Notes under the pieces: model-generated
What the model saw: the letters and a program-made list of their open reading frames with translations, nothing else
Told to the model about the DNA's origin: nothing
Database searches by the model: none
Part shown: one piece after another, positions 5,861 through 63,425 of the stretch
Layout: each line of letters begins with the position of its first letter
How positions within the stretch are numbered: position 1 is the first letter of the stretch
Translations under genes and position numbers: made by a program
Source of the DNA: Henricia sp. BOLD:AAB3569
Lineage: Eukaryota; Echinodermata; Asteroidea; Spinulosida; Echinasteridae
Assembly: GCA_037783545.1 (NCBI GenBank)
Contig: JBBELK010001000.1
Span: forward strand, 620,001-684,000
Direction of reading: 5' to 3'
Length of the DNA: 64,000 nt

Positions 5861-6678
5861 TTAAAGGCCCTACATGTATCATTCGCAAGATACAACTTTT
5901 TGCAGATTCGTGGAATAAGAGTGTAAAATATCCAAGGAAAAATGTTGGTAAACTAGCCTGAAGAAATTTTACAATGTAGCTACATACATGTAGATGCATC
6001 AGTGCTTCAGAAAACCTTGAAAATCTATGTCTGTTTTCAATACTGGAGAGAATTTTTCACCAGGATCATAACTCTGTGCAAAACCAGTTATCTTCTCTCA
6101 AAACAAAAGAAATATCTTAAGACAGATCTAAGGAGATAACTTTAAAGCAACAAATAGTGCAACAACATACCTTTCTGAAAACCCCGTGTACAAATTTCCT
6201 ATTTAACGTAGGTTTAGGACATACATGTGACTTTTTTGGTGTCCTTGTTACATACGGTATATTGGAAATTTGCACATAGGGCTTTCAGGAAGGTATGTTG
6301 TGGCACTATTCGTTGCAATTCTTTAGCTGAAGTTATCTACATGTACTTAGACCTATCTTAAGATATTTCTTTTGTTTTGAGAGAAGATGAATGACATTGT
6401 ACAGAGATATAATCCTGGAGGAAAGGTCTCTCTAGTATTGAAAACAGACATATGGATTTTGTGTACAAGTAAAAGGTAAAAAAGTCCTGTGCACAGGACT
6501 TTTTTAGAAACCCACCTTCGGTTGTCAATTTCCAACATGAAATAACATTTTTTACGGAAATACATTCATTTGTTGTTTGTTACCATTGCTATCAACACTT
6601 TGAGTAAGGTTTTTCTTGTCAACTCAAGAAAAACAAAATTGGGTCATTGCAAATGATACATGTACAATGGGCCTTTAA
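5861..6678. mobile_element. Large fold-back TTAA element, 818 bp
   Basis: Begins TTAAAGGCCCTACATGTATC and ends in GATACATGTACAATGGGCCTTTAA. Inner arms 6020-6190 and 6280-6445 are inverted copies of each other (for example TCTCAAAACAAAAGAAATAT against its reverse complement), so nearly the whole element can form a hairpin. The ends match the elements at 29416-29947, 42139-42618 and about 55029-55414. TTAA at each end is consistent with a Kolobok- or piggyBac-type target; the termini lack the CCC of piggyBac. Confidence 0.7.
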
Positions 6679-8605: not shown

Positions 8606-8748
8606 TTAAAAAGGCACAGACTCGTCAGCAATGCGCGCGCGCCAAATTCGTGCCACGACATACGCAGCTCCATAGCAAAGGCATGGAGCTGCATTTTTCG
8701 TGGCACGAATTTGGCGTGCGCGCATTGCTGATGAGCCTGTGCCTTTAA
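8606..8748. mobile_element. TTAA palindromic MITE (GCGCGC type), copy 1
   Basis: An almost perfect palindrome of about 140 bp with arms CGTCAGCAATGCGCGCGCGCC / GCGTGCGCGCATTGCTGA (shown in part), meeting at CTCCATAGCAAAGGCATGGAG. It is flanked by TTAA at 8606-8609 and 8745-8748. Copies occur at 16218-16358, 38457-38597, 47637-47741 and 63285-63425. It is non-coding and probably mobilised in trans by a Kolobok-like transposase (inference from TTAA). Confidence 0.8.
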
Positions 8749-9410: not shown

Positions 9411-10135
9411 TTCACTGGTCCCGAGCTCGGGATCAAGATTGGTCCCCTGATAAGATTGCGTCAGTGTTAACCGCAATGATCCTGAGTGCCGCGTTTACAT
9501 TCTGTAGTTGATCTCGAGCGCAGTGCCAGACGTTGCAGTAAAATGTCATGCTCTGTGTGTGCATGTACTGATCAATGTGTGCATGGGTTGTGAGTGTACA
9601 GTGTACAAGGCCACTTGAATTTCGCGGGCTTTTCCCCAGCTAGGGCTATGGAGCGGATGTGGCAGTCTTATATACACATTGTTTACACTCGAACCAGCAA
9701 AGGTGGATACATACCCAGCATTTTTATTGCGACCACAAAACTAAACATTTTGCCGCGTTTACACTACACCTCGATCCGGCTTCAACTCGCCTTCAGAAAC
9801 CGCAAAAGTCACCACTAGTTGTAACTGCAGCGCATGCGTGAGTTGTTAGGTGTTGGGGAACTGGTGCCAGATTGGTCAATTAAATCTACCATACGGCGGG
9901 CACTGGCCCAAGGACACTCAAATTGCCGAATCTGTATTCGGGTAGCGTTTACACTACAAGCGATCTTGACAATTGCGGGGTTCAACCCTACCCCAAAGGT
10001 GACTTGAAAAGGGCGAATCAGACCTGCCTTTTTGAATTCACCTTTTGCATTTACACTTAGTGCCTACCCGGCTTGAACTCCCCTTTTTTGAAATAGCAGA
10101 GTTCGATTCGGCAAAGGCGAATCGAGTGTAAACAT
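9411..10135. mobile_element. Composite fold-back element (GAGCTC family joined to CCCGGG family)
   Basis: The left part (about 9411-9665) matches 13788-14170 and, inverted, 27058-27490 (CACTGGTCCCGAGCTCGGGA, TTGATCTCGAGCGC). The right part (about 9680-10135) matches the family at 11051-11544 (TTTACACTACACC, TTCACCTTTTGC, GAGTGTAAAC). The left end CACCGGGTTTTCAC and right end GTGTAAACATG both resemble the family ends CACCGNGTTTACAC. It is either a recombinant or an old nested insertion. Confidence 0.5.
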
Positions 10136-10880: not shown

Positions 10881-11050
10881 ATGAAGTGTTGAAGCCAACA
10901 ATAAATGATACAGAGAAATCATAACGTCGGCACCATTATTCTGCACACATGTAGTTGATAGTCCACATTTAAATTACACGTACCTCAGTTGAGACAAAGT
11001 ACACCCTTTGTTTGATTTTGATACATGTAGTAAGGATTTTGGGTGAATTA

Positions 11051-11544
11051 CACCGCGTTTACACTCGAATCGGCAAAGGTGGATACAGATCCAGCATTTT
11101 TATTGCGACCACAAAACTGAACATTTGCCGCGTTTACACTACACCCCAAATCGCTTTAACTCGCTTCAGAAACCGCAAAAGTCACCACTAAATGTAACTG
11201 CAGCGCATGCGTGAGCTGTTAGGTGTTGCTGCACTAGTGCCAGATTGGTCAATTAAATCTACTACACTGCGGGCACCGCCCCAAGGACACTCAAATTGCC
11301 GAATCTGTATTCGGGTAGCGTTTACACTACAAGCGACCTTGACGATTGCAGGGTTCAACCCTGCAATTGCGGGGTTCAACCCTACCCCAAAGGTGACTTG
11401 AAAAAGGCGGATCAGACCCGGGTCTGATCCGCCTTTTTCAATTCACCTTTTGCGTTTACACTTAGTGCATACCCGGCTTCAACTCCCCTTTTTGGAAATT
11501 GCGGAGTTCGATTCGGCAAAGGCGAATCGAGTGTAAACGGGGTG
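11051..11544. mobile_element. Harbinger-like MITE with TTA duplication, 494 bp
   Basis: Ends are CACCGCGTTTACACTCG and CGAGTGTAAACGGGGTG, with TTA on both sides (11048-11050, 11545-11547). The interior holds a perfect central palindrome, GATCAGACCCGGGTCTGATC, inside AAGGCGGATC...GATCCGCCTT arms. A second copy of identical length (35264-35757) also has TTA on both sides. No coding capacity was seen. Confidence 0.75.
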
Positions 11545-11860
11545 TTACAATTTCTACAAGAACATACACTGTAGTCTGTACACCGACTCCTACATATGCA
11601 TGCCCCCATTGTGTACACAGGCTTTCAACATTCAATAAAGTCAGCCAAGGGACCTTCCCTGGGGATGAGTCAATCCCATGCAAGACATAAATCTGACTGG
11701 AATCCTGATTTCATTACACAGTCCAGGAAAAGTTGATAATAAGTTAGACACTAGCAATTGAAATGCCCGTTTGTTATTCAAATAGAAACGTAAGGTGTGG
11801 GGAAGTAGGGAGGGAGGGAGGGGTGGGAATGTGTGCTGACTAATGCATATTGTATGATGG

Positions 11861-16019: not shown

Positions 16020-16900
16020 TATTTTCCTTGAGCAGGAGATTGTATCCGATCAGGATTTGAACCCGGGACTTCAGACACATTGTGCAGATGCTCTACCAGC
16101 TACCGTATATGAGGCACAGTGGTATACTCCCTTAGGTTTCCCTACGAACCCTATTTTTTCTCTTGGTACATTGCATGAGTGTACAAGTGAGCAAAGCAAC
16201 AGCATTTGGTATGGTGCTTAAAGGCACAGGCTCGTCAGCAATGCGCGCGCGCTAAATTCGTGCCACGAAATACGCAGCTCTGTGCCTTTGCTATGGAGCT
16301 GCGTATTTCGTGGCACGAATTTGGCGTGCGCGCATTGCCGACGAGCCTGTGCTTTTAATCACAAATGAAAAAGCCAAACATGGGTTGAGAGAAAAATCAT
16401 GTATGAGCCTCATCGGTTTCGGGATTTGAAGCCAAGACCTCCGACAGAAAGACCTCCGACACTCGAGACAGATGCCCTACCAGCTGTGCTATGAGGCATA
16501 GTAGTGGTATATTACATGTACCTTAGGTTTTCCCTACCAACCTATTTTTATCTCAATGTTGCATGGGAACGCAACTGAGCAAAGTAACACACTATTTTGG
16601 TATCGTGCCTAACCACAGATAAAACAGCCAAACATTGGATTGAGAGAAAAATTGTTATGGGCCTCATTGGGATTTGAACCCGAGATCTCCGACTCTCCAG
16701 GCAGATGCTCTGCTAGCTGAGCTATGGGGCACAGTGGTACATGGTCTCGGGTTTCCCCCAAGACTTCAAACATCCCAGGCAGATGTTCTACCAGCTGAGC
16801 TATAAGGCACAGTGCTATACTCCTTCATATTTTCCTCAAGACCTCCGACATGCTGGGCACATGCTCTACTGGCTTAGCTACACATATTACTATTAGACAA
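16020..16900 (-). repeat. Tandem tRNA-derived SINE units
   Basis: At least four tRNA-like heads in the same minus orientation. The best one (16654-16735) reads, on the minus strand, GCCCCATAGCTCAGCTAGCA (A box), then a GGGTTCAAATCCC B box. Heads are followed by a shared tail (GAGAAAAATC, CAAACATTGG, and GGTATNGTGC at the far end). Repetition of the head-tail unit at roughly 230 bp suggests a tandem multimer rather than independent insertions. A TTAA MITE (16218-16358) is inserted in one unit. Eroded arms and acceptor stem argue against functional tRNA genes. Confidence 0.7.
16218..16358. mobile_element. TTAA palindromic MITE (GCGCGC type), copy 2
   Basis: Same palindrome as 8606-8748, with TTAA at both ends (16218-16221, 16355-16358). 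It is nested in a SINE unit at the sequence GGTGC/TTAA. Confidence 0.8.
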
Positions 16901-18005: not shown

Positions 18006-18018
18006 ATACTGTGTAAAT

Positions 18019-18269
18019 GGGTCTTTCTATAAATTAGGGGTCCAAAAGTGTGACATTTAGTGTCCCCCGTTACACCCGATATGTGTTATTTTTCGTACAA
18101 AAATCATTAAAATGGCTTTTAAAACATTTTTAATGAATTGCACTTTATGTACTCACTCTTTGAGATGGAAAGTATTTAAAGAATGTGTCCTGAATTTACA
18201 AAAACGATATGTAAAATGTAACGGGGCACACCAACATTGGACCCCTAATTTATACTTATAGAAAGACCC
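18019..18269. mobile_element. GGGTCTTTCTATAAA MITE, 251 bp, AAAT duplication, copy 1
   Basis: Begins GGGTCTTTCTATAAATTAGG and ends with the inverted version ...TATAGAAAGACCC. It is flanked by AAAT on both sides (18015-18018, 18270-18273). Internal arms GTGTCCCCCGTTACA / TGTAACGGGGCACAC add to the fold-back. Copies are at 49821 (AAAT) and 54029 (TTTT). No coding sequence was seen. Confidence 0.8.
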
Positions 18270-18908
18270 AAATGCTACCCCATATGAATACGGCATTTCA
18301 AGTGGGAAACCAGGCTTATTTTCACCTCTGCGCTGCCCCGGGCCCACCCTGGAGATTTGGTCTAGTGGGAAAAGGCCTTATGAGATGCATGCACGTGCTA
18401 CATGTAATTTCCCTCTAAAATACCGGTAGTCCAGTTGCAAGTCTACAAAAGTTATAGAAAATTGTTTTGGATTTCACCGAGACAAACCGTCATTTTATTT
18501 GCTATAAATAAATGAGATAGAAGAGTACAAACCTTTATGCGAATTGCAGAGCTACCAACCCTCCCGGATTTTGGGGAATACATATGGGAAAACAGGTTCA
18601 TTCCGGGACTCCAAACAAATCTAAAAATCCCCAAGGTTGTTAATTGACAATCCAGGAGGGTTTTTCTCCATGCCAGGACTCACAAAATTAGTCATTTTCT
18701 GAAGAATCTGTTGCAAAATCCGGGAGGGTTGGCAGTTCTGGAATTGACGCTAACAGACCATAAATTTGTACTTTAGATTAAAACACTTGTTTTAATATAA
18801 CATCATTTGAGGCATAGGCTGGTTAGTGATCCATAGTTAATGAATGCCACTTGTTCATACATTTACATGTACGTGTGTAATCATACACGACGCCATTCTG
18901 GCAGTAAA

Positions 18909-21294: not shown

Positions 21295-21952
21295 CAGGAG
21301 GGTTGTAATGACTCGGACTCGAGACTCGGACTTGAGACACGAACCTCAAATGACTTGACTTGACTTTCGAACCTCAAATGACTTGACTTGACTTTCGAAC
21401 CTCAAATGACTTGACTTGACTCTCGAACCTCAAATGACTTGACTTGACTTGAGCCTCGAACCTCAAATGACTTGACTTGACTTGAGCCTCGAACCTCAAA
21501 TGACTTGACTTGACTTGAGCCTCGAACCTCAAATGACTTGAGCCTCGAACCTCAAATGACTTGACTTGACTTGAGCCTCGAACCTCAAATGACTTGACTT
21601 GAGCCTCAAACCTCAAATGACTTGACCTGGACATGTTTTACTGGGGTCTGCCAAAAATAGAACTTGTATGCATTTTTTGTCATTTTGAGGACCGAACTGT
21701 ACCGTATTTCAGCACTAAGCTTTCTTTTAACATGGAGCATTCTCGGCCATAGCAACAAAAATACTGTACACGAATGCAAGTTTCGACTCAATTTGAAATT
21801 AGCATGAACAGATTTATTGTTGTGACTACTTGACTTGAACCGACTTGACCAACATGCCTGACTTGACTTGCCTTGCCTTGCCTTGCCTCGAGACTCGAAG
21901 GCAGTTTGACTTGACTTGAGACTCGAGCAGAGGGAGACTCGTTACAACCCTA
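21295..21952. mobile_element. hAT-like element with CTCGAACCTCAAATGACTTG array
   Basis: Ends are CAGGAGGGTTGTAATG and CGTTACAACCCTA. The flanks GTATGTTG (21287-21294) and GTATGTTA (21953-21960) are a 7-of-8 match, the size expected of hAT. The interior is about ten irregular units of TCGAACCTCAAATGACTTGA with variable GACTTGACTT fill, then a non-repetitive segment and a closing GACTTGACTTGAGACTCGAG block. It is the same family as 2305-3091. Confidence 0.78.
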
Positions 21953-24970: not shown

Positions 24971-25028
24971 CTTGAGAGGGCAGTAAATGTTGATGTGTTT
25001 GATTAGCCTTAACAGCACCTACAGGTAA

Positions 25029-25497
25029 AGGCCCGTTTACACTTGAATCTCCTTTGCCGAATCGAATTTCCAAAAAGTGGAGTTGAAGCCAGGTAGGCAC
25101 TAAGTGTAAACGCAAAAGGTAAAAAAGGCGGATCAGACCCGGGTCTGATTCGCATTTTTGAAGTTGCCTTTGGGGTAGGATTGAACCCCGCAATTGTCAA
25201 GGTCGCTTGTAGTGTAAACGCTACCCGAATACAGATTCAGCAATTTGAGTGTCCTTGGGGCAGTGCCCGCCGTGTAGTAGATTTAATTGACCAATCTGGC
25301 ACTAGTGCCATAACACCCACATGTAACAGCTCACGCATGCGCTGCAGTTACAAATTAGTGGTGACTTTTGTGGTTTCTGAAGGCGAGTTGAAGCCGAATC
25401 AAGGTGAAGTGTAAACGCGACAAATGTTCAGTTTTGCGATCGCAATAAAAATGCTGGGTCTGTATCCACCTTTGCCTGTTCGAGTGTAATCACAGTG
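25029..25497. mobile_element. Harbinger-like MITE with TAA duplication, 469 bp
   Basis: Ends AGGCCCGTTTACAC and GTGTAATCACAGTG are imperfect inverted repeats. TAA flanks both sides (25026-25028 and 25498-25500). The central palindrome GATCAGACCCGGGTCTGATT is shared with the family. It is inverted relative to 11051-11544. Confidence 0.65.
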
Positions 25498-25633
25498 TAA
25501 TACATGTAGGCAGCCAGGGCTGTATACTCCCCAGGGAGCTGAGATGGTATGGAATGATTTAATGCAGCCCTATGATCAGAAGTAATGATAATGTGCAGCC
25601 CTGATTGGGCTTTCCCTGGATAAGTGCGAGGTA

Positions 25634-34129: not shown

Positions 34130-34385
34130 TCATCCCAACTTTGTTTGTTTCATTTCAATGGTGATCAGGCACCATACCAGATTTTGCGTTTGTTACTTTG
34201 CCCAGTTGCGCTACCATGCAACACCGAGAGAACAATTGGGTCTATAGGGAAAACCTGAGGGAGTATACTAACTGTGCTTTATAGCTCAGCTGGTAGAGCG
34301 TCTGCCAGGTGAGCCAGATGTCTTGGGTTCGAATCTTGATAAGGCCCTTGCGATTTTTCTCTCATCTCATCTTTGGTTAACTCAC
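34130..34385 (+). repeat. tRNA-SINE, first family, plus-strand copy
   Basis: GGTGATCAGGCACCATACCA, then GCAACACCGAGAGAACAATT, the head TTATAGCTCAGCTGGTAGAG, B box GGGTTCGAATC and tail CGATTTTTCTCTCATC. The order equals the unit repeated in reverse at 16020-16900. Confidence 0.65.
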
Positions 34386-35263: not shown

Positions 35264-35757
35264 CACCGCGTTTACACTCGAATCGGCAAAGGTGGATACA
35301 GATCCAGCATTTTTATTGCGACCACAAAACTGAACATTTGCCGCGTTTACACTACACCCCAAATCGCTTCAACTCGCTTCAGAAACTGCAAAAGTCACCA
35401 CTAAATTTAACTGCAGCGCATGCGTGAGCTGTTAGGTGTTGCTGCACTAGTGCCAGATTGGTCAATTAAATCTACTACACTGCGGGCACCGCCCCAAGGA
35501 CACTTAAATTGCCGAATCTGTATTCGGGTAGCGTTTACACTACAAGCGACCTTGACGATTGCGGGGTTGAACCCCGCAATTGCGGGGTTCAACCCTACCC
35601 CAAAGGTGACTTGAAAAAGGCGAATCAGACCCGGGTCTGATCCGCCTTTTTCAATTCGCCTTTTGCGTTTACACTTAGTGCCTACCCGGCTTCAACTCCC
35701 CTTTTTGGAAATTGCGGAGTTCGATTCGCCTTTGCCGAATCGAGTGTAAACGGGGTG
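35264..35757. mobile_element. Harbinger-like MITE with TTA duplication, 494 bp, second full copy
   Basis: Same ends (CACCGCGTTTACACTCG / CGAGTGTAAACGGGGTG) and the same length as 11051-11544, but different outer flanks. TTA is at 35261-35263 and 35758-35760. The internal palindrome TTGCGGGGTTGAACCCCGCAA is better preserved here than in the other copy. Confidence 0.75.
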
Positions 35758-36540
35758 TTAGAGGGGACTTTTGCAGTTTGCAAAGGCGAGTTGAAGCGAG
35801 TTTGCACGAATTCACAATAAAAATGCTGGGTCTTTAAACACTGCATTAGGCTAATGAAACTCGATGTTATGTTTCCCGTAACCCGCCCGCGTTTGGATTT
35901 TTCGGCCGCGTTTGAGATGCCAAAATCCTAAAACAATTCATTATTTTGTATTTTCCCAAAAATATCAAGTTTTTTATTTTTTTCTCCTGCCATTTTGGTT
36001 GGATTTTTAAAATCAGCGCTCGAATTTCACATTGCTCATTCTCGTCCTCCCGCCAAAAAATTGTTAACGTCATTTTCTTCCCCCAAAAAAATATACCCCA
36101 GTAGCAGAGTACGTACTAGTATTAAGCGCGGCTGGCCGCCGGCACGTGAACAGTGATTTACAATAAATTCCTGGAGAAGACAGCGCTGCCATTTTTTTGC
36201 ATGTTCCCGGTGTGCAAAACCCTGCACGTACGTACGCGCAAGCCCGGCGCGCTGCTGTACAAACACGACTGTCCACTCCATCGTAGTTATTAGATCGGTG
36301 GTTTGCAGCTGCGAGTGCTAGCCTAGAACTACACAAACTACAAATGGGCGATTGTATTTATCGTTAGCGAGCGGCGCGGACCACAAATGGGCCATCGTAC
36401 GTAGGCCTGCTGACACTTAAGTTGACTGCGGCTAGCTTTATACTACTGTCGACGCATCAGAATCGTAAATCGCACATGTCGCATCGTTCGTCGTGTTTTG
36501 GAGAGATCTCAAGAAGGTTAAATCATGCGAGACAGATAAA

Positions 36541-36750
36541 ATGTTTGTGTCAGTGAAGATACAGGAAGGGGGTGTAACCAAGATGCCATGGACTATCACG
36601 ACTGTGTCTCAAACGTGCACTTTGTTGCAGTTATTTGAGTCAATTGTTGAACTCGGTAACGACAGTGTAAATCATCATGTTGTACCAATATCTGTCTATG
36701 TTGGATCTTCACAACAGTCCTACATGTCCAAAGCAGCTGTTGATCCGGGG
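36541..36750 (+). pseudogene. Exon-like open frame, first part, interrupted
   Basis: From the ATG at 36541 the frame reads MFVSVKIQEGGVTKMPW and on to SSQQSYMSKAAVD, where a 300-bp palindromic insert begins. The frame is open upstream to a GTG at 36493. The alternating hydrophobic pattern (VSVKI, TLLQLFESIV, VPISVYV) suggests a small alpha/beta fold, but no family is recognised. The segment continues in phase at 37069. Confidence 0.45.
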
Positions 36751-36753
36751 GCG

Positions 36754-37053
36754 GTCAGACAAGTCGACCGTTGAGACAACTCGACTTGAGACAAGTCGAC
36801 CGTTGAGACAACTCGACCGTTGAGACAACTCGAAAGACAAGTCGACCGTTGAGACAAGTCGACCGTTGAGACAAGTAAAAGGGGGGAGGTGATGGTGCTT
36901 ACCCATTCAGTGACACGGCCGTTCTGGTCGACATGTTTTTATTGTTTGAAAATAAAATGTTATTTTAATTTCAAAATTTAAGTGTGTCCGCTGAGTTGTC
37001 TCAGCGGTCGACTTGTCTCGAGTCGAGTTGTCTCAACGGTCGACTTGTCTGAC
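36754..37053. mobile_element. 300-bp palindromic insert splitting the open frame
   Basis: Ends GTCAGACAAGTCGACCGTTG and CAACGGTCGACTTGTCTGAC are perfect inverted repeats. Subterminal AGACAAGTCGACCGTTG / GAGACAACTCGA motifs repeat several times on the left, and an AT-rich centre holds AATAAAAT. The insert is flanked by a 26-bp direct duplication (36718-36743 and 37063-37088). Confidence 0.75.
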
Positions 37054-37068
37054 ATCCGTTGATCCTAC

Positions 37069-37259
37069 ATGTCCAAAGCAGCTGTTGACCTGGCCAAATG
37101 CTTGGCTCACGAAATTTGTCAAGTTTTTGGCAATTTTGTGTGCTTTGAAGTACAAACAACTGAAGAGATATGTAACCGTTTTAGTAACACCTGGTACAAT
37201 CACAACAACTTGTGTATTTATAGTGCATTAAAAACCATACCTCCTGTTGATGAGAATGT
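37069..37259 (+). pseudogene. Exon-like open frame, second part, with donor site
   Basis: Repeats MSKAAVD from the duplicated target and then continues LAKCLAHEICQVFGNFVCFE. The frame stops two codons after GAGAAT/GTAAGT, a consensus splice donor at 37260, so the coding part plausibly ended there as an exon. Two Cys and the aromatic-rich stretch VFGNFVCF are the only notable features. No function can be assigned. Confidence 0.45.
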
Positions 37260-38024
37260 AAGTTAAATAAAGGTAGAAAAGCATGGTTTGCAATTCCCTT
37301 TTGAAATGTGTGGACTGTTATAAATGTGTTTTGTTATTTAAATATATCTTGATCCTTAAATAAATAATAAATACCTGGGAAATGGTGAAGGATATTTTAA
37401 TAAATACAAATTTGTGTCTAAATTGATCAGGGTTGTGTTTTAACACACTATCAGAGGGTATAGAGCGCGCTAAGTTTTGATCAAAAAGCCGTTACTTTGC
37501 AAATAATGAAATGCTGAAAAATAATGAATAATGAATAATGAAATAGTTGCCTCATTTGGGCTTGACAAAAATGTTACGGGAAACATAACATCGAGTTTCA
37601 TTAGCCTAAGTGCAACAGCAAAATATCCCCTAGTTGCATGGTTTCTAGCTCACTGCCCACTTCACTACAGCAGGGAGCAGGATTAATACCATCATTCTAA
37701 TTACCAAGTCTGCACACAGAAAATTCCATTGTAGGTGTGTCTTCTAATTGAAAGCTTATAGTCAGTGTGGAGTTGCCAATTGTCTGATTACAGTGTTTGT
37801 TGTGGTTAACACCTTCGACTGCCAATCAAAATAACCAAGGTAGTCTTTCCATAGTAAAGTGTGTGGGATTAACACACCTTTGTGGTTTCTTCAACTTAAT
37901 TTAATCTTGAGAAGTGCTTATGGGCAGCAGGTTGCCATAAGATTCCATTGGAGAATCAAATTAGGAAAAGCAGTCTTACCTGTACATGTACCCACGTACG
38001 TGTCTATTGCATAGGCCTAAGCCG

Positions 38025-38400
38025 TGTCCGCATTGGATTTGTTTTTTGGGAGGTCTTACCGAGACGATGGTAAAATGAAAAATTGCTAAATTTTACAGCT
38101 GTCCGCATTTGGACTTTTTGACACAGTAATGCAACTATCAATTGTTTCCCTCCCCCTTCCCCTGCGCTGCCCCACCCCCTAGATGGGGGTTTGGTCACGT
38201 TTTTTATGCCCCAGGGTGGGGCATTTGACCCTTTTAAATAAAATTTTCTGTGCATTTGTATACAAGACGCGCATGTTTTGCACCCGAGGGTGGGGATTTT
38301 GGTCACCTAAATGTTGTCCCAGGGGTGGGGATTTTGTCACGCAAAAAGGGGGGGTGGGGGAACAATTGATAGGTGCATAACATTTTACTGAGAACGTGGG
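38025..38400. repeat. CATTGGACT-family and GGTGGGGATTTTG repeat cluster
   Basis: GTGTCCGCATTGGATTTG and TGTCCGCATTTGGACTTTT are inverted, with TTTACCATC/GTAAAATG inside. They are followed by GACGCGCATGTTTTGCACCC and GAGGGTGGGGATTTTGGTCA, which recur at 38960-39015. The second copy is preceded by a long C run (38853-38882). Confidence 0.5.
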
Positions 38401-38456
38401 AGAGCATGCGCAGTGTCCCTTCGCAGTTTGACCTTCACGGCAAATGGGAACGCACG

Positions 38457-38597
38457 TTAAAGGCAGATGCTTACCAATGCGTGCGTGAGGCCAACTTCGT
38501 GCCACGAAATACGCAGCTCCATGCCTTTGCTATGGAGCTGCGTATTTCGTGGTACAAATTTGGCCTCACGCGCGCATTGACGAGCCTGTGCCTTTAA
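38457..38597. mobile_element. TTAA palindromic MITE, copy 3
   Basis: TTAA at 38457-38460 and 38594-38597 encloses AGGCAGATGCTTACCAATGC ... GACGAGCCTGTGCCTT. The arms CCACGAAATACGCAGCTCCA / TGGAGCTGCGTATTTCGTGG are a perfect inverted repeat at the centre. Confidence 0.78.
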
Positions 38598-38809
38598 GAT
38601 TACACAGAGAAATGTTACCACCGCGGGTCAAAGTAATTTTCCTGTAAGATAGCTGAAGAGAAAGTCCAATGCCTTTAGTCAAGTAAAGAATTATTTGGCT
38701 ATTTCCATAGGGGTTAACCACATTGAGTTCAGCAGGTCAGATGGCAAGAGTGCTGGCAGGTTAAAACCAGATGTCGCAGACTCAAACTATGCTTAAATTT
38801 TTTTTCTTT

Positions 38810-39015
38810 TCTAAAACATAATGCACCTATAAATTGCTTCCCATTGCTTCCCACCCCCCCCCCCCCCCCACCCCCCCCACCCCCTACATGTAGGCGGTGG
38901 GGGTTTGGTCGCATTTTTCATGCCCCAGGGTAAGGCCCTTTGAAATAAAATTGTATGTGCATTTGTATACAAGACGCGCATGTTTTGCACCCGAGGGTGG
39001 GGATTTTTGTCACCT
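38810..39015. repeat. Second copy of the GGTGGGGATTTTG repeat
   Basis: Shares ATGCACCTATAAATTG (inverted relative to 38358-38380), GGGGGTTTGGTC, ATGCCCCAGGG and GTATACAAGACGCGCATGTT with 38160-38380. It contains a long poly-C tract. Confidence 0.55.
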
Positions 39016-39604
39016 AAAATGTGACAAAAAGTTGTCAACATTTTCACAGTTCTACAGAGAGTAGTAATATTTTTCAAGACCCCCTCCCTCCCCCAAAACA
39101 TTTTTCTGGCAGTACCTAGAAATGACAATGTTGTACATGGCATCAAAAGTCCTACGCGGCCTTCGACTCCCCCTCCCACCTCTTTGTAGAACCGTGAAAA
39201 TGTTGACAACTTTGGACGGCCCCTAAGGGAATAAACGTGATGAAGAAATTTGAAAGTTGCCCTTTAAAACTAGATTTCCCAACCAGATGGAATGCGGGGC
39301 CAATTTCATGGTGCTGCTTTAACAGCCGATTTTCTGCTTACTGCCTCCTGTTATTTCATGGTACTTGTAACTGATTGTAAGCAAAAATGTCCCAGCCATG
39401 TAATAGTGCTAAAGTTTGCACACCTTTTCTGTTACAGTAAGCGTATTTTTTGTGCTAGTAATTTATAGACAGCGCAACAGAACTTCATTAAAAGCCAGAA
39501 CTGAATACTGCCCCAGAACGAATGTGACTGCATATTCAATACTGGATACAGTAGCCTATAGCGCAGTGGTTTAGTGGTTAAGACATCTGCTATGTTTTGT
39601 AGTA

Positions 39605-40245
39605 GTGTGCAACCTGGGAACAAGTAGTGCGCAACCTGGGAACCATACTAAATTCAGCCATGTCATACAGCGACTATATCTCGTCAGTCTGCAGGATTTC
39701 TTCACTTCACCTCCGCAACATAGGGCTTATAAGGAAATACCTTACCCTGGATGCTACAGAGAAACTCATTCACGCCTATGTCACCAGCCGCCTCGATATG
39801 GGGAATTCTCTCATGTACCGTCTTCCAGATAACCAGTTGGTTCGTTTGACTCGCCTCCAGAATGTGGCTGCCCGAATCGTTACGAGGACTAAAGCTAGGA
39901 ACACATCACACCAGTTTTGAGAAAACTTCATTGGTTGCCAATAAAGGACAGGATTTCCTTCAAAATTCTTATGTATGTATACCGCTCGTTTAATGGCAGA
40001 CTACCACCGTATCTATCAGAGTTACTACAATTACATCATACAAACCGGGACTCCATGCGATCAAACAACAAACTTCTTCTCAAGAAAGTCCGGTCTAGGA
40101 GATCCTGGGGTGACAGGACATTTGCATCAGCAGCCGCAACATTATGGAACAAGATACCGGAACACATCAAACCTGCATCAAACTCTCAACATCTATGGCC
40201 TCCTTTAAATCATCACTTAAAACATATTTTATGAAATTGCATTAA
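39605..40245 (+). pseudogene. Non-LTR retrotransposon (CR1/L2-like) ORF2 C-terminal remnant
   Basis: Encodes the end of a reverse-transcriptase polyprotein. Conserved landmarks in order are RNLGTILNS, EKLIHAYVTSRLDMGNSLMY, RLTRLQNVAARIVTRT, then LRKLHWLPIKDRISFKIL, NGRLPPYLSELL and LWNKIPEHIK. The frame breaks once near 39905 (HxITPVL is read only after a one-base shift) and again near 40173, after which a third frame ends at 40245. A short (ATT)n tail at 40362-40380 is typical of CR1/L2 3' ends. The 5' part, including the polymerase and endonuclease domains, is absent (5' truncation). Not functional. Confidence 0.85.
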
Positions 40246-44385: not shown

Positions 44386-44860
44386 AGACCCGTTTACACT
44401 CGATTCGCCTTTGCCAATTCGAACTCCGCAATTTCCAAAAAGGGGAGTTCAAGCCGGGTAGGCACTAAGTGTAAACGCAAAAGGTGAATTGAAAAAGGCG
44501 GATCAGACCCGGGTCTGATTCGCCTTTTTCAAGTCAACTTTGGGGTAGGGTTGAACCCCGCAATTGTCAAGGTCGCTTGTAGTGTAAACGCTACCCGAAT
44601 ACAGATTCGACAATTTGAGTGTCCTTGGGGCAGTGCCCTCTGTGTGGTAGATTTAATTGACCAATCTGGCACCAGTTCCGCAACACCTAACAACTCACGC
44701 ACGCGCTGCAGTTACAACTAGTGGTGACTTTTGCGGTTTCTAAAGGCGAGTTGAAGCCGGATCGAGGTGTAGTGTAAACGCGGCAAATGTTCAGTTTTGT
44801 GGTCGCAATAAAAATGCTGGGTCTGTATCCACCTTTGCTGGTACGAGTGTAAACACGGTG
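44386..44860. mobile_element. Harbinger-like MITE with ATA duplication, 475 bp
   Basis: Ends AGACCCGTTTACAC and GTGTAAACACGGTG; ATA at 44383-44385 and 44861-44863. The central GATCAGACCCGGGTCTGATT palindrome is intact. It has the same orientation as 25029-25497. Confidence 0.65.
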
Positions 44861-45460
44861 ATAATATCATCACTATCAGAATGGGTATTTAACCAGCATT
44901 TAACAATTACCGATATAAAACACATTACTATTACTATATTAGTGTCTACCAAATCTGGGCAAGTCGTTACATTGTAATAAGCTAAATCTTGTTAATAACC
45001 TCTCATTGTCAATTGAGAAATGTGACAGAACACACAAGATATATTGTAGAGAGAAAAAGACAGAGAGAGAATGAGGAAAAAAGCACACATCCCAGCTGGT
45101 AAATTGGCCCAGTAAAAGACGACTGCAGCTGGGCAAACAAAAGACCTGGCTTCTTCAACTACACAGCCAGCCCAGCCAATGTAGCTAAGCAGTGATTTAG
45201 TAATATATTACACACAAACCAAGGCTGGTTGTGTGTATAATGTCATGTGTGTGTTCATAGTCCCTTCATGGTTACTACATGCAGTCTATATCTATATGGA
45301 GAAATCTGCCTTTGGTGTAATTAACATATAACGACTTCATTATCCAGGTCACTTTGGGGACAGGTGGGGTCAGGTCGGGGTCAATCACATTAACAGATCG
45401 ATGATAAATTTGTGTTACTTCAGAGTAGCAGAATTACTACTCTGTAGGCAGACACTCACC

Positions 45461-46488
45461 TAATGCTGTAACCGAACATACGAACCGAACGGGATTTTAC
45501 TGAACTTGGCACTTCCGAACCGAACCGGACCGCACCGAACATTACACTCAGTTCGGCTGTTCGAGAGTGTTTCACTTTGAATTTCACATCTTATGTATTT
45601 TAATAGTAAATGTGAAAGGCAGCTGGATTCCTGAATGTCAAAAACCCACTCGAAATGACTTCTTATGCTTGCAAAAGCGCTTCGTGTTTAACTGTCGAAC
45701 GTCATATGCACTGTACAAAGCAATTTTTGTGCCAATTCAGATCCAACATTTTGAGCCCGGCGCCCACAGTACCGACATGCATGACTCCATACCAAGCATG
45801 ACTTCACAATCGATATCTACACGGACGTCGCTCGATCGGTGCCAATCAAATATTGTATTGGCTCCATCGCAGCAACGTGCCAAAGCCATAGAGTTACCGC
45901 AAAGTATGTATCTGCACGATGTGCTGATAATAACTGTCGATTGATCGGAACGGTTTGATTGAAAACGCCCTCTAGCGGCGTGGCATACATTTGCATTGTG
46001 AAAATAGCATATCGGGACAGAATTTTCTTGGACATAATTCTTCGCACAGCATTGTGAAAAGCATTTTGAGGGAAATCTATAAGCCCTCTTACAGAAACAC
46101 AGCGATACTTGCGAGTACTACCGGTACAAACAATCGTCAGAAAATAAACACCAAAGACTAGGAAAAAATACCATCCCACGCAGTCTCACGATGGTTTGCA
46201 CGTGGTACAAATCACAAAATGCATGCACACCGCAAGTTCCGACAGTAGCGCCGTGCTCCAGCCGCGGATTCCATTTAGTTTCCCGGGTCAATTTCATCCC
46301 ACCATAGCCGTTATCTTGTTCATTACGACGAATAAATCGTGTAAAAGAGCTGGTTTGAAGATAACAAAATACATAGGCCGACAATACTTGCCGAACCCGA
46401 ACCGAACAAATGTTCGGGAAGAAATTACCGAACTTTTGCCGAACCGAACCGAACCAAACCCGAACTTGCGGACTTAGTTACAGCATTA
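45461..46488. mobile_element. hAT-like element with perfect 8-bp duplication, 1,028 bp
   Basis: Terminal repeats TAATGCTGTAAC / GTTACAGCATTA are perfect. The target duplication CACTCACC is exact at 45453-45460 and 46489-46496. Both subterminal regions are packed with CCGAAC/GAACCGAAC motifs (about 45472-45555 and 46380-46475), a hallmark of hAT transposase binding regions. Unrelated middle sequence carries a 125-codon plus frame (45567-45944) and 120- and 88-codon minus frames with no DDE or zinc-finger signature recognised. Probably non-autonomous. Confidence 0.85.
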
Positions 46489-47584: not shown

Positions 47585-47636
47585 TACCAAAATCAAGTAT
47601 TGTTCTCAATTTGGTGTCCAAATATGGAAAGCTCAC

Positions 47637-47741
47637 TTAAAGGCAGAGGCTCGTCAATGCACGCGCGAGGCCATGCCTTTGCTATGGAGCTGTGTATTTC
47701 GTGGCACGAATTTGGCCTCACGCACGAGCCTGTGCCTTTAA
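47637..47741. mobile_element. TTAA palindromic MITE, copy 4 (short)
   Basis: TTAA at 47637-47640 and 47738-47741 encloses AGGCAGAGGCTCGTCAATGC ... ACGAGCCTGTGCCT. It is shorter than its relatives because part of the left inner arm is deleted. The opposite arm of the surrounding element (around 48084-48096) shows the same flanks with a single TTAA. Confidence 0.85.
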
Positions 47742-49036: not shown

Positions 49037-49820
49037 TATATTCATGCAAGGTCACAAGACATAGCAAAATAAGGCAAATTTATTTTTAAGCAGTCAATTA
49101 CTTTGGTTAACCTTAATCATTTTGCAATTGATTTTTATTAAACAGAAGACAAAATGCACAAAAACAATGTTGTTTAAAATGCTTTGTACACTTGTCATTT
49201 TTAGGAATGCAAACTTCGTATCTTCAAATACCACAATCCACACAAGCAATGAAAGCAGAAATGTGATTCTACGAAGAGAGATTTTTAAAGTGCAAACCAT
49301 CCCATTAATGAATTCCTGGACTGGAGTATGTACTCCTGATGCTAGCGTGATGAGTAAAATGGGAAAATAGAGCTCTTGAGTCACAATATGCAACCTTGGA
49401 ATGCAGTTGATGATTCCATCGTCCATTAAGACTAATTAGCATGACAATGGGGACCAATGAAAGCTGATCTACGGAGCTGAAACCTCCAAGTAGGTTGTGT
49501 CAGTACTCTGGTCTCTTGAGATTGGTAAAGAAGGCTAATTTAGAGAGGCTACTGCAAGAACGCTGGGTGGATTGCAATAAAGAAAGTTAGTACATGCCAA
49601 TTCCAGAGCAGAACTGTCAAACCTTCCTGATTTTGCAACATATTCCCTGGGAAAAAAACTACCGATACGGATAAATATTATCCTGGATTGTCAATTGACA
49701 ACCTCGGTGATTTTTAGACGTGTCTGAAGTCAGGAGAGCAACCTATTCTTTGGGTGTTTATTCCAAAATTAGGGAAAGTTGGCAGCTCTTAAGACGTCTT
49801 AAATCGAACATCACTCAAAT

Positions 49821-50065
49821 GGGTCTTTCTATAAATTAGGGGTCCAGCTTTGGTGTCCCCCGTTACATTTTACATCTTGTTTTTGTAAATTCAGGACACA
49901 TTCTTTAAATACTTTCCATCTCAAAAAGTGTGTGTATAAAGTACAATTCATACAAAATGGTTTCAAAGCCATATTAATGATTTTTGTACGAAAAATAACA
50001 CATATTAGGTGTAACGGGGGACACCAAATGTCACACTTTTGGACCCCTAATTTATAGAAAGACCC
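49821..50065. mobile_element. GGGTCTTTCTATAAA MITE, 245 bp, AAAT duplication, copy 2
   Basis: Inverted relative to 18019-18269. AAAT is at 49817-49820 and 50066-50069. Ends GGGTCTTTCTATAAATTAGG / TATAGAAAGACCC are intact. Confidence 0.8.
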
Positions 50066-50639
50066 AAATATCAGTTATTTTGTCTTGCAAAAAAAATGTG
50101 TCATAACTTATGTCCTAAGACACACAATTTAAGACACCTAATAAGTGTCGTACGTTATGTCTTTAGAAGATTGTTTCATCTTTCCTGCACTCCATTCCAG
50201 AAAAAGAATATCAAACATTTACTTTTGATAAAATGTTTTTTTTACAAGCAGTTTTCACTGGAAGTTTACTACAATTCAAGCCTGGGTTAATTAAAAAATG
50301 TTTTCGAAGTTGTTTACGCCACGGTCACCTACGTACATGCATGCGCACGGCAGTTAACTACCGGCAAGTACTATAATGCGCATGCGACTGAAATGCCGTC
50401 TAAAACAGTGAGGACATACAAACCTTTTTATATTAGCCAAGACATCCTAATGTTTGGATATTGCAAGACATTTTTTACTGTGTCGTAGGTAACCAAGATG
50501 TCCTAAATTCAGTTAGGACATGTCTCAAACCAAACACGGTTTTATCGCAATCTACCCCAGGGCTTTAGTGAATGGGTAGCAGGGTTGAGATCGAGTCCAT
50601 CACAAGTCCAGTAAGAAGAAGAAGCAAAGGTGAACACGC

Positions 50640-54028: not shown

Positions 54029-54263
54029 GGGTCCAAATTAGGGGTCCAAAAGTGTGACATTTAGTTTCCCCCGTTACACCATGTGTTATTTCTTGTACAA
54101 AAATCATTAAAATGGCCTTTAAACCATTTTGTATGAATTATACTTTATGTACTCACTCTTTGAGATGGAAAGTATTTAAAGAATGTGTCCTGAATTTACA
54201 AAAACATGATGTAAAATGTAACGGGGGACACCAACATTGGACCCCTAATTTATAGAAAGACCC
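54029..54263. mobile_element. GGGTCTTTCTATAAA MITE, copy 3, TTTT duplication
   Basis: Same orientation as 18019-18269. The left end is shortened to GGGTCCAAATTAGGGG by a small deletion; the right end TATAGAAAGACCC is intact. TTTT is on both sides (54025-54028, 54264-54267). It lies inside the E-protein intron. Confidence 0.75.
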
Positions 54264-57680: not shown

Positions 57681-58192
57681 CCCATCTTTATTGACATTAA
57701 AGTGAACAGCTCATTGAGCATGGAGCCCAACTTTCATTTTTACGTTGCGACGCGTTACTAGGTGGGAAATAAAACACGTTTACACCGGTCACCGGATGAC
57801 ATTGCTTCGCCCAAATATCAGGTCCAAGGGACAAATTTGATTTTGGGAGATTGCCACAGATTTTTAGTACATACGACGTGATGTACATCATGTAGATGTA
57901 GGTTTACCAACGCCCCATTTACAGGTTTAACATAAGTTACTTCTTTACTTATCCTCCACTTCATCATCTCCCATTTTTTGGGTGACTTTGCAGGACTTTG
58001 TGATTAATATAATACTTTGCGAACGCAAAAACCTCCTGTAACCCCGCATCGTGCAACATTTTTCACGGTTTTTTTTCAGCTATTCTGCCACAAGTTTCAC
58101 AGCGTGCCAGAATTTTGATGGCTGTTAAAAAAAAAACTTTCACACTTATGATATTATCGATGCCATGTTGTTCACAGGACAGTTTGAACTAG

Positions 58193-58793
58193 ACCCGTGA
58201 ACAGGGCGTCGTATTCTCCGCCATGTTGCTGTTTGTAACCCCAAATCTGTGACAAACTCACGCAAATAAAAATTTGTCCCTTGGCTCTGATATTTGCTCA
58301 ATAGCTGCACTCACCCAAGCGTGTACAAATTCCGAAGAGTACGCGTCGATCTGATGTCTAGCTTCGGTGAAATCGTGGGGCAAACTTGAGACCCTCCGTG
58401 CGATAAAATACAGACTGTTTGCCCAAAAAATAAAATATGCGCATGCGCAAGAGCGTAGAGGTCAACACTAGACTGGTTTCATATCCTCATATTTACTTCC
58501 CTTCGTCGTATAAGATAAAGGGAAGTAAATATGAGAACAGCGAACCAGTCTAGCTTGTGTTGACCTCTTCGCTCTTGCGCACGAAGGGTCTCAAGTTTGC
58601 CCCACGATTTCACCGAAACTAGACATCGGATCGATGCGTACTCTTCGGAATATTTACACGCTTGAGACGGGCGAGTGCAGCTATTGAGCAAATCTCAGAG
58701 CCAAGAGACAAATTTCATTTGCGTGAGTTTGCCACAGATTTGGGGTTGGAAACGGCAACAGGGCGGAGAATACGACGCCCTGTTCACGAGTCT
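58193..58793. repeat. 600-bp near-perfect palindrome
   Basis: The left arm begins CGTGAACAGGGCGTCGTATT and the right arm ends AATACGACGCCCTGTTCACG. The match continues through CTCAAGTTTGCCCCACGATT / AATCGTGGGGCAAACTTGAG to a centre at about 58505, between TTTACTTCCCTT and AAGGGAAGTAAA. Each arm is roughly 300 bp. It is non-coding and either a fold-back transposon or an inverted duplication. Confidence 0.75.
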
Positions 58794-59360
58794 AATTTCG
58801 AACATGCGTTGCTGAGTGCACAGTGACCAAACAACACAAACATTTTTCAGCGAACACACGATCGAGTATAGATAGAAACACATTTTTTTTTTTTCCTGTG
58901 AGCAAATATGGCATAAATAATCGTGTAAGGGTTTATTTATTGGACCGACTTGAAAAAGGTGTCCTTTTCACAGTTTTGTTTTTCGAATTAACTTAGGGCC
59001 TATGGCTATGTGCAAGACTGAAATTTGAAATTTGGAACAACTAGGCTTATTTTAAATGATTGCAAAAAAAGCCTTGATGTTTGGCCTCTCAAAAAAACAA
59101 AACAAAACAAGGACGGCAGGCACATTCATTATTTATGCAGTCAAAAGTTAAACATGAACCCGACTACCGGTATCACAACCATGCCCGCGGTGGCATGTCA
59201 TTCAGATATGTCAGCCGCCATTGCTTTTGTGTACACTCCAGACCAGTCAATGCCAGACGGTCGCGGTCCCTGTTCGTAGGGTGTCCACCCGGCCGTACCC
59301 AGTCCGCACCGCCGTCGTCCTGCGTCAAATGTCGATCACAAAATGATACATTCCTTGCGC

Positions 59361-60213: not shown

Positions 60214-60638
60214 CAGTGTTGTAGTACTCGAATCCAGGACTCGTACTCGAGTCACAATTTCCGTGACTCGGACTCGACTCGAGTCACATTGGAAAATGAC
60301 TTGGTCTCGGACTCGACCATAAATGACTCGGACTCGAATACGGTGACTCGTGACTCACGAGTCACATATTTCAAAAAAAGAAAAACGATATATATTTGCC
60401 CGCTTAATGCAAGATTCTTAGGGGAAAAACAGTCCGATGCGTGAATATGTACACTGCTTCACCAAGCCGGCAAGGAGCGCATCGAGTACATCATCATTTC
60501 ACATTGTGTGAACGAAATATAGCAGATTCAGTTTCATTAATTTAGCTAACAAGTAACTCGTGACTCGGACTCGGACTCGAGGCTAGTGACTCGAGACTCG
60601 GACTCGGACTCGATATTGGTGACTCGACTACAACACTG
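60214..60638. mobile_element. hAT-like element with GACTCGGACTCGA arrays, 425 bp
   Basis: Ends CAGTGTTGTAG and CTACAACACTG are perfect inverted repeats. The 8-bp target duplication GCTTGTGC is exact (60206-60213, 60639-60646). Both ends carry clusters of GACTCG/CGAGTC motifs (60238-60365 and 60555-60628), separated by unrelated sequence. It is related in ends and motif to 2305 and 21295. Confidence 0.88.
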
Positions 60639-63284: not shown

Positions 63285-63425
63285 TTAAAGGCAGAGGATC
63301 GTCAGCAATGCGCGCGCGCCAAATTCGTGCCACGAAATGCGCAGCTCCATGCCTTTGCTATGGAGCTGCATATTTCGTGGCACGAATTTGGCGCGCGCGC
63401 ATTGCTGACGAGCCTCTGCCTTTAA
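63285..63425. mobile_element. TTAA palindromic MITE, copy 5
   Basis: TTAA at 63285-63288 and 63422-63425. The arms GCCAAATTCGTGCCACGAAA / TTTCGTGGCACGAATTTGGC are perfect for this stretch, so this is one of the best preserved copies. Confidence 0.82.

Follow-up and report, generated by a model that had tools for sequence, protein, structure and literature searches.

A probable non-autonomous or decayed DNA transposon copy with 37-bp terminal inverted repeats, an interrupted reading frame and a nested 311-bp insertion in Henricia sp.

Non-autonomous elements with terminal inverted repeats (TIRs) comprise MITE-like elements and internally deleted derivatives. The PHIS superfamily comprises PIF/Harbinger, ISL2EU, Spy, Pangu and Nuwa, and the ISL2EU elements duplicate 2 bp at a 4-bp palindromic target, A/AT/T (PMC4482050). 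Kolobok elements duplicate a full TTAA target, and several lineages carry accessory proteins (PMC9587614). The locus analysed here lies in a window of 64,000 nucleotides (64 kb), which is the whole stretch of DNA under analysis, and possesses, in the form of a 37-bp pair, the terminal inverted repeats expected of a class II TIR transposon. The locus probably represents a cut-and-paste DNA transposon, in a non-autonomous or decayed copy whose 37-bp TIRs enclose a damaged possible gene relic. The coordinates of its features are collected in Table 1.

The outer repeats had been described in the first-pass annotation as perfect over 37 bp, and inspection confirmed this at the exact positions given. 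They delimit a unit of 1764 bp, with the arms 1.69 kb apart. When 30 sequences of 64 kb were simulated under a second-order Markov model, perfect inverted arms within 6 kb of each other reached maximal lengths of 13–17 bp, so that a chance origin of the 37-bp arms is excluded. Further perfect inverted pairs of 48, 40 and 33 bp were found elsewhere in the window, and the 37-bp pair is thus not exceptional there.

Table 1. Features of the element and its immediate flanks (positions refer to the window; element ends are those of the 37-bp repeats).
Feature	Position	Strand	Remark
Left terminal inverted repeat, 37 bp	35846..35882	+	perfect complement of 37573-37609
Right terminal inverted repeat, 37 bp	37573..37609	-	perfect complement of 35846-35882
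Flank CTGCA on the left, weak candidate for a 5-bp target duplication (one mismatch)	35841..35845	.	4/5 match to 37610-37614
Right flank GTGCA, partner of CTGCA 35841-35845	37610..37614	.	4/5 match
CpG-rich zone upstream of the frame, putative promoter or 5' region	35883..36468	+	
First piece, possible coding frame	36541..36743	+	ATG to end of first 26-bp repeat copy
26-bp direct repeat, first copy	36718..36743	+	identical to 37063-37088
GTTGATCC, 8-bp target duplication of nested element, left	36739..36746	+	
Nested 311-bp element, inverted and internally repeated ends (fold-back-like)	36747..37057	.	
GTTGATCC, 8-bp target duplication of nested element, right	37058..37065	+	
26-bp direct repeat, second copy	37063..37088	+	identical to 36718-36743
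Second piece, possible coding frame	37063..37257	+	starts with second 26-bp repeat copy
GTAAGT, possible splice donor	37258..37263	+	in frame V-S, then TAA (37264-37266)
Four of the six AATAAA of the element, candidate poly(A) signals within AT-rich sequence	37266, 37359, 37366, 37399 (37266..37404)	+	

Inside the element, a frame is open from position 36469, with an ATG at 36541. It had been taken for a single coding segment, a view that had to be abandoned, as the frame falls into two pieces separated by a direct repeat of 26 bp and by the nested 311-bp element, the latter of which contains several in-frame stops. The inverted arms of the nested element (36754-36814 and 36993-37053) are 97% complementary over 61 bp and show 17-bp tandem units, and the exact 8-bp duplication GTTGATCC borders the element on both sides. 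No other copy of it was found in the 64-kb window. We infer two events, namely a tandem duplication of 26 bp, which would have shifted the frame because 26 is not divisible by three, and the subsequent arrival of the 311-bp element within the duplicated sequence. Duplication and insertion together add 345 bp, a length divisible by three, so that both pieces share one window frame. One insertion alone, accompanied by a target duplication of 26 bp, was disfavoured because the presence of GTTGATCC at both ends would then be unexplained. The 345-bp insert was likewise disfavoured as an intron: of the four GT/AG pairings located inside the two 26-bp copies, the sites considered here, none keeps the frame, and the 8-bp target duplication better explains the insert ends.

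The second piece runs into the only GTAAGT on either strand of the element, where the frame reads GAG AAT GTA AGT TAA, with an AATAAA beginning at 37266. A splice donor had been proposed at this point; the hexamer is indeed present on the plus strand, whereas its status as a donor is called into question by the in-frame TAA directly after it. The plus strand of the 64-kb window contains eight GTAAGT hexamers, equivalent to about 0.2 expected by chance in 1764 bases. From its sequence context, GTAAGT may mark the frame end or a spliced donor, and is a candidate only. The two AATAAA hexamers of the element beyond those in Table 1 are found at 36162 and 36951.

Evidence for coding was mixed, with mildly protein-like composition set against chance-level ORF length. 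The longest ORF of the element, at 101 codons, was reached or exceeded in 278 of 500 shuffles. When stop-free segments were scored by their best sub-segment, the ORFs holding the first and second pieces ranked 246th and 77th of 1062, respectively. Whole-piece composition, in turn, was matched by 18 of 252 stop-free window stretches of equal length for the first piece (36541-36741) and by 23 of 346 for the second (37075-37257). For the first piece, the RNY score was 0.27 in its own frame and 0.38 in another; for the second, it was 0.38 in its own frame compared with 0.18 and 0.22 in the others. Single-sequence modelling of the first piece with AlphaFold2 returned a beta-beta-alpha-beta-beta arrangement (pLDDT 66, pTM 0.49) as the best of five models, the others having pLDDT values of 52–54. 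In this low-confidence model, the order of secondary-structure elements resembles that of the beta-grasp (ubiquitin-like) fold. For the second piece, a pLDDT of 45 was too low to interpret.

These data bear directly on the foremost alternative, according to which the frame arose by chance inside a TIR element that is both non-autonomous and non-coding, its open stretch and its GTAAGT being fortuitous. We consider this quite possible, at somewhat less than even weight, and it is compatible with a genuine element, since the confidences attached to the readings overlap and are not exclusive. It agrees with the ORF length attained in more than half of the shuffles, with the hexamer frequency expected for one strand of the element, with the modest ranks of both ORFs and with the RNY preference of the first piece for another frame. 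Against it, the two same-frame pieces flank a later insertion and, for either of them, only about 7% of comparable stretches attain an equal composition score, and the first piece yields a mixed fold from a single sequence. The favoured reading covers two forms, one in which the element holds the relic of a gene of its own and one in which the frame is fortuitous.

Database searches with the frame pieces were consistent with the earlier statement that the protein fragment resembled no transposase motif. For none of the three frame stretches submitted did Pfam return a family at E ≤ 10, NCBIfam gave a single match for the second piece, far below its cut-off, and comparison of the frame pieces with PDB sequences gave a best E of 0.096, with the rest worse. 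Among viral contigs, three pattern-matching stretches were obtained for the first piece and 44 for the second, none of which was confirmed. Eight phage records matched the second piece at E 0.09–0.5 (three DNA polymerases, four hypothetical proteins and one unannotated) and were judged to be chance matches. For the first piece, one of 41 stretches from prokaryotic genome contigs was confirmed, from Colwellia psychrerythraea (match L001; query residues 32–60, best segment 55% identical, with an E of 4e-6 computed among candidates only). It was rejected as a relative, as the stretch lies in a penicillin amidase (PF01804, E 1.5e-11) and mainly ELGNDSVNH is shared.

The ends of the element were compared with their flanks over nine lengths and eight offsets, and no clean target-site duplication was found around the outer TIRs. 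The best flank pair at the 37-bp ends, CTGCA/GTGCA, agrees at four of five positions, a level of at least 4/5 that is reached by 1.9% of random pairs and is weakened by the number of lengths and offsets taken in. Exact 2-bp matches occurred at two of the eight offsets into the TIR, TA at offset 3 and GC at offset 6; the TA match is weak because a self-complementary dinucleotide always matches inside an inverted repeat. The TIR ends read TTA.../...TAA, and with TA as the target the repeat begins GGCTAATG. No third copy of the 37-bp TIR was detected in the 64-kb window at up to three mismatches. The 21-bp TIR core had no match in the collections of viral contigs and prokaryotic genome contigs, and a text search of a library of papers with the TIR strings gave no match. 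These contig collections and the phage records cover viral and prokaryotic DNA, so that the absence of relatives from them carries little weight where the element is from an animal.

The lack of a clean outer target duplication and of a second copy in the 64-kb window counts against the preferred reading of a transposon copy. Both observations would suit a 37-bp sequence that was simply duplicated in inverted orientation with no transposon involved, an origin that we nevertheless regard as unlikely, since perfect 37-bp arms in a window rich in TIR and fold-back structures look like element ends. The setting is likewise consistent with a TIR transposon, the window being rich in similar short elements, among them the inverted-end family of about 480 bp described below. 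The nested element with its exact 8-bp duplication and the composition of the two frame pieces also speak for the preferred reading.

Upstream of the frame, the CpG-rich zone reported in the first-pass annotation was recovered: consecutive 200-bp bins across 35800-36599 had observed/expected ratios of 1.37, 1.30, 1.33 and 1.08, compared with 0.79 for the window. The enrichment is not confined to the element, as values above 1 were also obtained outside it (1.15 at 35600-35799 and 1.12 at 38400-38599), and the ratio fell to zero in bins 37200-37399 and 37600-37799. On base composition, the zone is a possible promoter. Such a 5' region, along with a possible exon-like piece within TIRs that has no Pfam match, is also what might be seen if a host exon had been captured by the TIR element as cargo in Pack-type fashion. 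This origin is distinctly unlikely in our estimation: the same lack of a Pfam match argues against a well-known host domain, and ORF length gives no clear coding signal.

In the preferred reading of a non-autonomous or decayed transposon copy, a transposase supplied from elsewhere would bind both ends, excise the element and insert it at a new site, and the outer unit would have moved as a transposon. The interior would comprise the CpG-rich 5' region together with what is possibly the relic of an element gene and may once have coded. The 26-bp tandem duplication would then have shifted the frame, and the fold-back-like element would have inserted there, copying 8 bp of target. As the frame cannot be read through the 26-bp repeat and the nested element, the copy would be a passenger, mobile at most via its ends. 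The absence of any Pfam family from the frame pieces is as expected for a copy without its own transposase.

It is very improbable, in our assessment, that the frame represents exon 1 of an element-encoded accessory protein, so far undescribed, whose N-terminal domain is beta-grasp-like, in a TIR family that has the unusual target TA inside TTAA and fits none of the superfamily definitions compared. If this were true, intact long sister copies would define a new transposon lineage. Should sister copies hold an intact gene of greater length, the frame could point the way to an accessory protein, as yet undescribed, of a DNA transposon in animals. At present, the locus is one damaged copy, mainly valuable as a record of nested insertion.

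The surrounding window holds several other repeats. A family of about 480 bp with inverted ends (GTTTACACTCGAATC.../...GATTCGAGTGTAAAC-like) is represented by five long copies in 64 kb (~35268-35751, 11046-11547, 44389-44865, 25028-25502 and 9657-10133), of which the other four are 83–97% identical to the copy at ~35268-35751, plus partial matches. Alignment of the five copies placed the end of the nearest one at ~35751, 94 bp to the left of the element, and this left neighbour thus provides no empty site, as the family end falls short of the element by that distance. A repeat of about 250 bp with inverted-repeat ends (GGGTCTTTCTATAAATTAGGGGTCCA) occurs at 18018-18270, 49820-50066 and 54035-54263, the copies being about 90% alike and two of them inverted 4 kb apart. 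Related tandem arrays with a unit of about 23 bp, such as TGACTAGAGACTCGAACCTCAAA, span 2364-2881 and 21307-21659, and a tandem array with a GACTCGAG flavour spans 60552-60627. Four copies of a near-palindromic repeat of about 140 bp were located at 8610-8748, 16218-16358, 38457-38597 and 63285-63425, with a partial one at 47636-47741, and long imperfect palindromes at 58187-58797 and 6020-6460 are about 76% self-complementary over roughly 610 and 440 bp, respectively.

Matches to tRNA were found in repeated DNA at 16659-16731 (minus strand) and 34275-34347 (plus strand), with 35.1 and 32.9 bits compared with an Rfam gathering threshold of 29; ARAGORN called only the former, as tRNA-Ser. The two are perhaps tRNA-derived SINEs. 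A 111-codon frame on the plus strand at 39899-40231 presumably resembles the terminal part of a CR1-type LINE reverse transcriptase, and matched no Pfam family at E ≤ 1. This frame and the tRNA-like repeats are in keeping with an animal genome. Pfam was run on ten of the 12 window ORFs of at least 120 codons (one of them trimmed; 38814-39263 and 45740-46117 were left out) and gave three matches at E 0.018–0.083, all below the cut-offs.

When the element is set against the PHIS superfamily (PMC4482050), several likenesses emerge: with the outer TTA...TAA taken as the target, the TIR starts with GG, the usual start in ISL2EU and a common one in Pangu; the target pattern would be T/TA/A, comparable to the A/AT/T of ISL2EU; and the TIR length of 34–37 bp falls within the published ranges. 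The dinucleotide of the element is TA rather than AT, and its flanks, TTA and TAA, do not fit the AT duplication within A/AT/T that defines ISL2EU (PMC4482050). Kolobok is resembled in the purine-purine start (GG) beside TTA/TAA; the TTA and TAA at the two ends form no direct repeat, however, and do not fit the TTAA target duplication by which Kolobok is defined (PMC9587614). Judged by Pfam, the frame pieces further differ from PHIS in that transposase, THAP, Myb/SANT and YqaJ domains were not found in them, and from Kolobok in that they match no nuclease or transposase family.

The flanks fit none of Transib, piggyBac, mariner, hAT and P by the TIR and target-duplication rules of these groups, which were applied informally. 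The nested insert resembles fold-back or MULE-like non-autonomous elements in its inverted ends of short tandem units and its 8-bp duplication, and differs from them in being only 311 bp long. The outer element is longer than a typical MITE and carries a possible gene relic, whereas its short perfect TIRs, its length of 1.76 kb and the finding of no transposase are shared with non-autonomous TIR elements. It is probably an ordinary element, which most likely belongs to a known kind.
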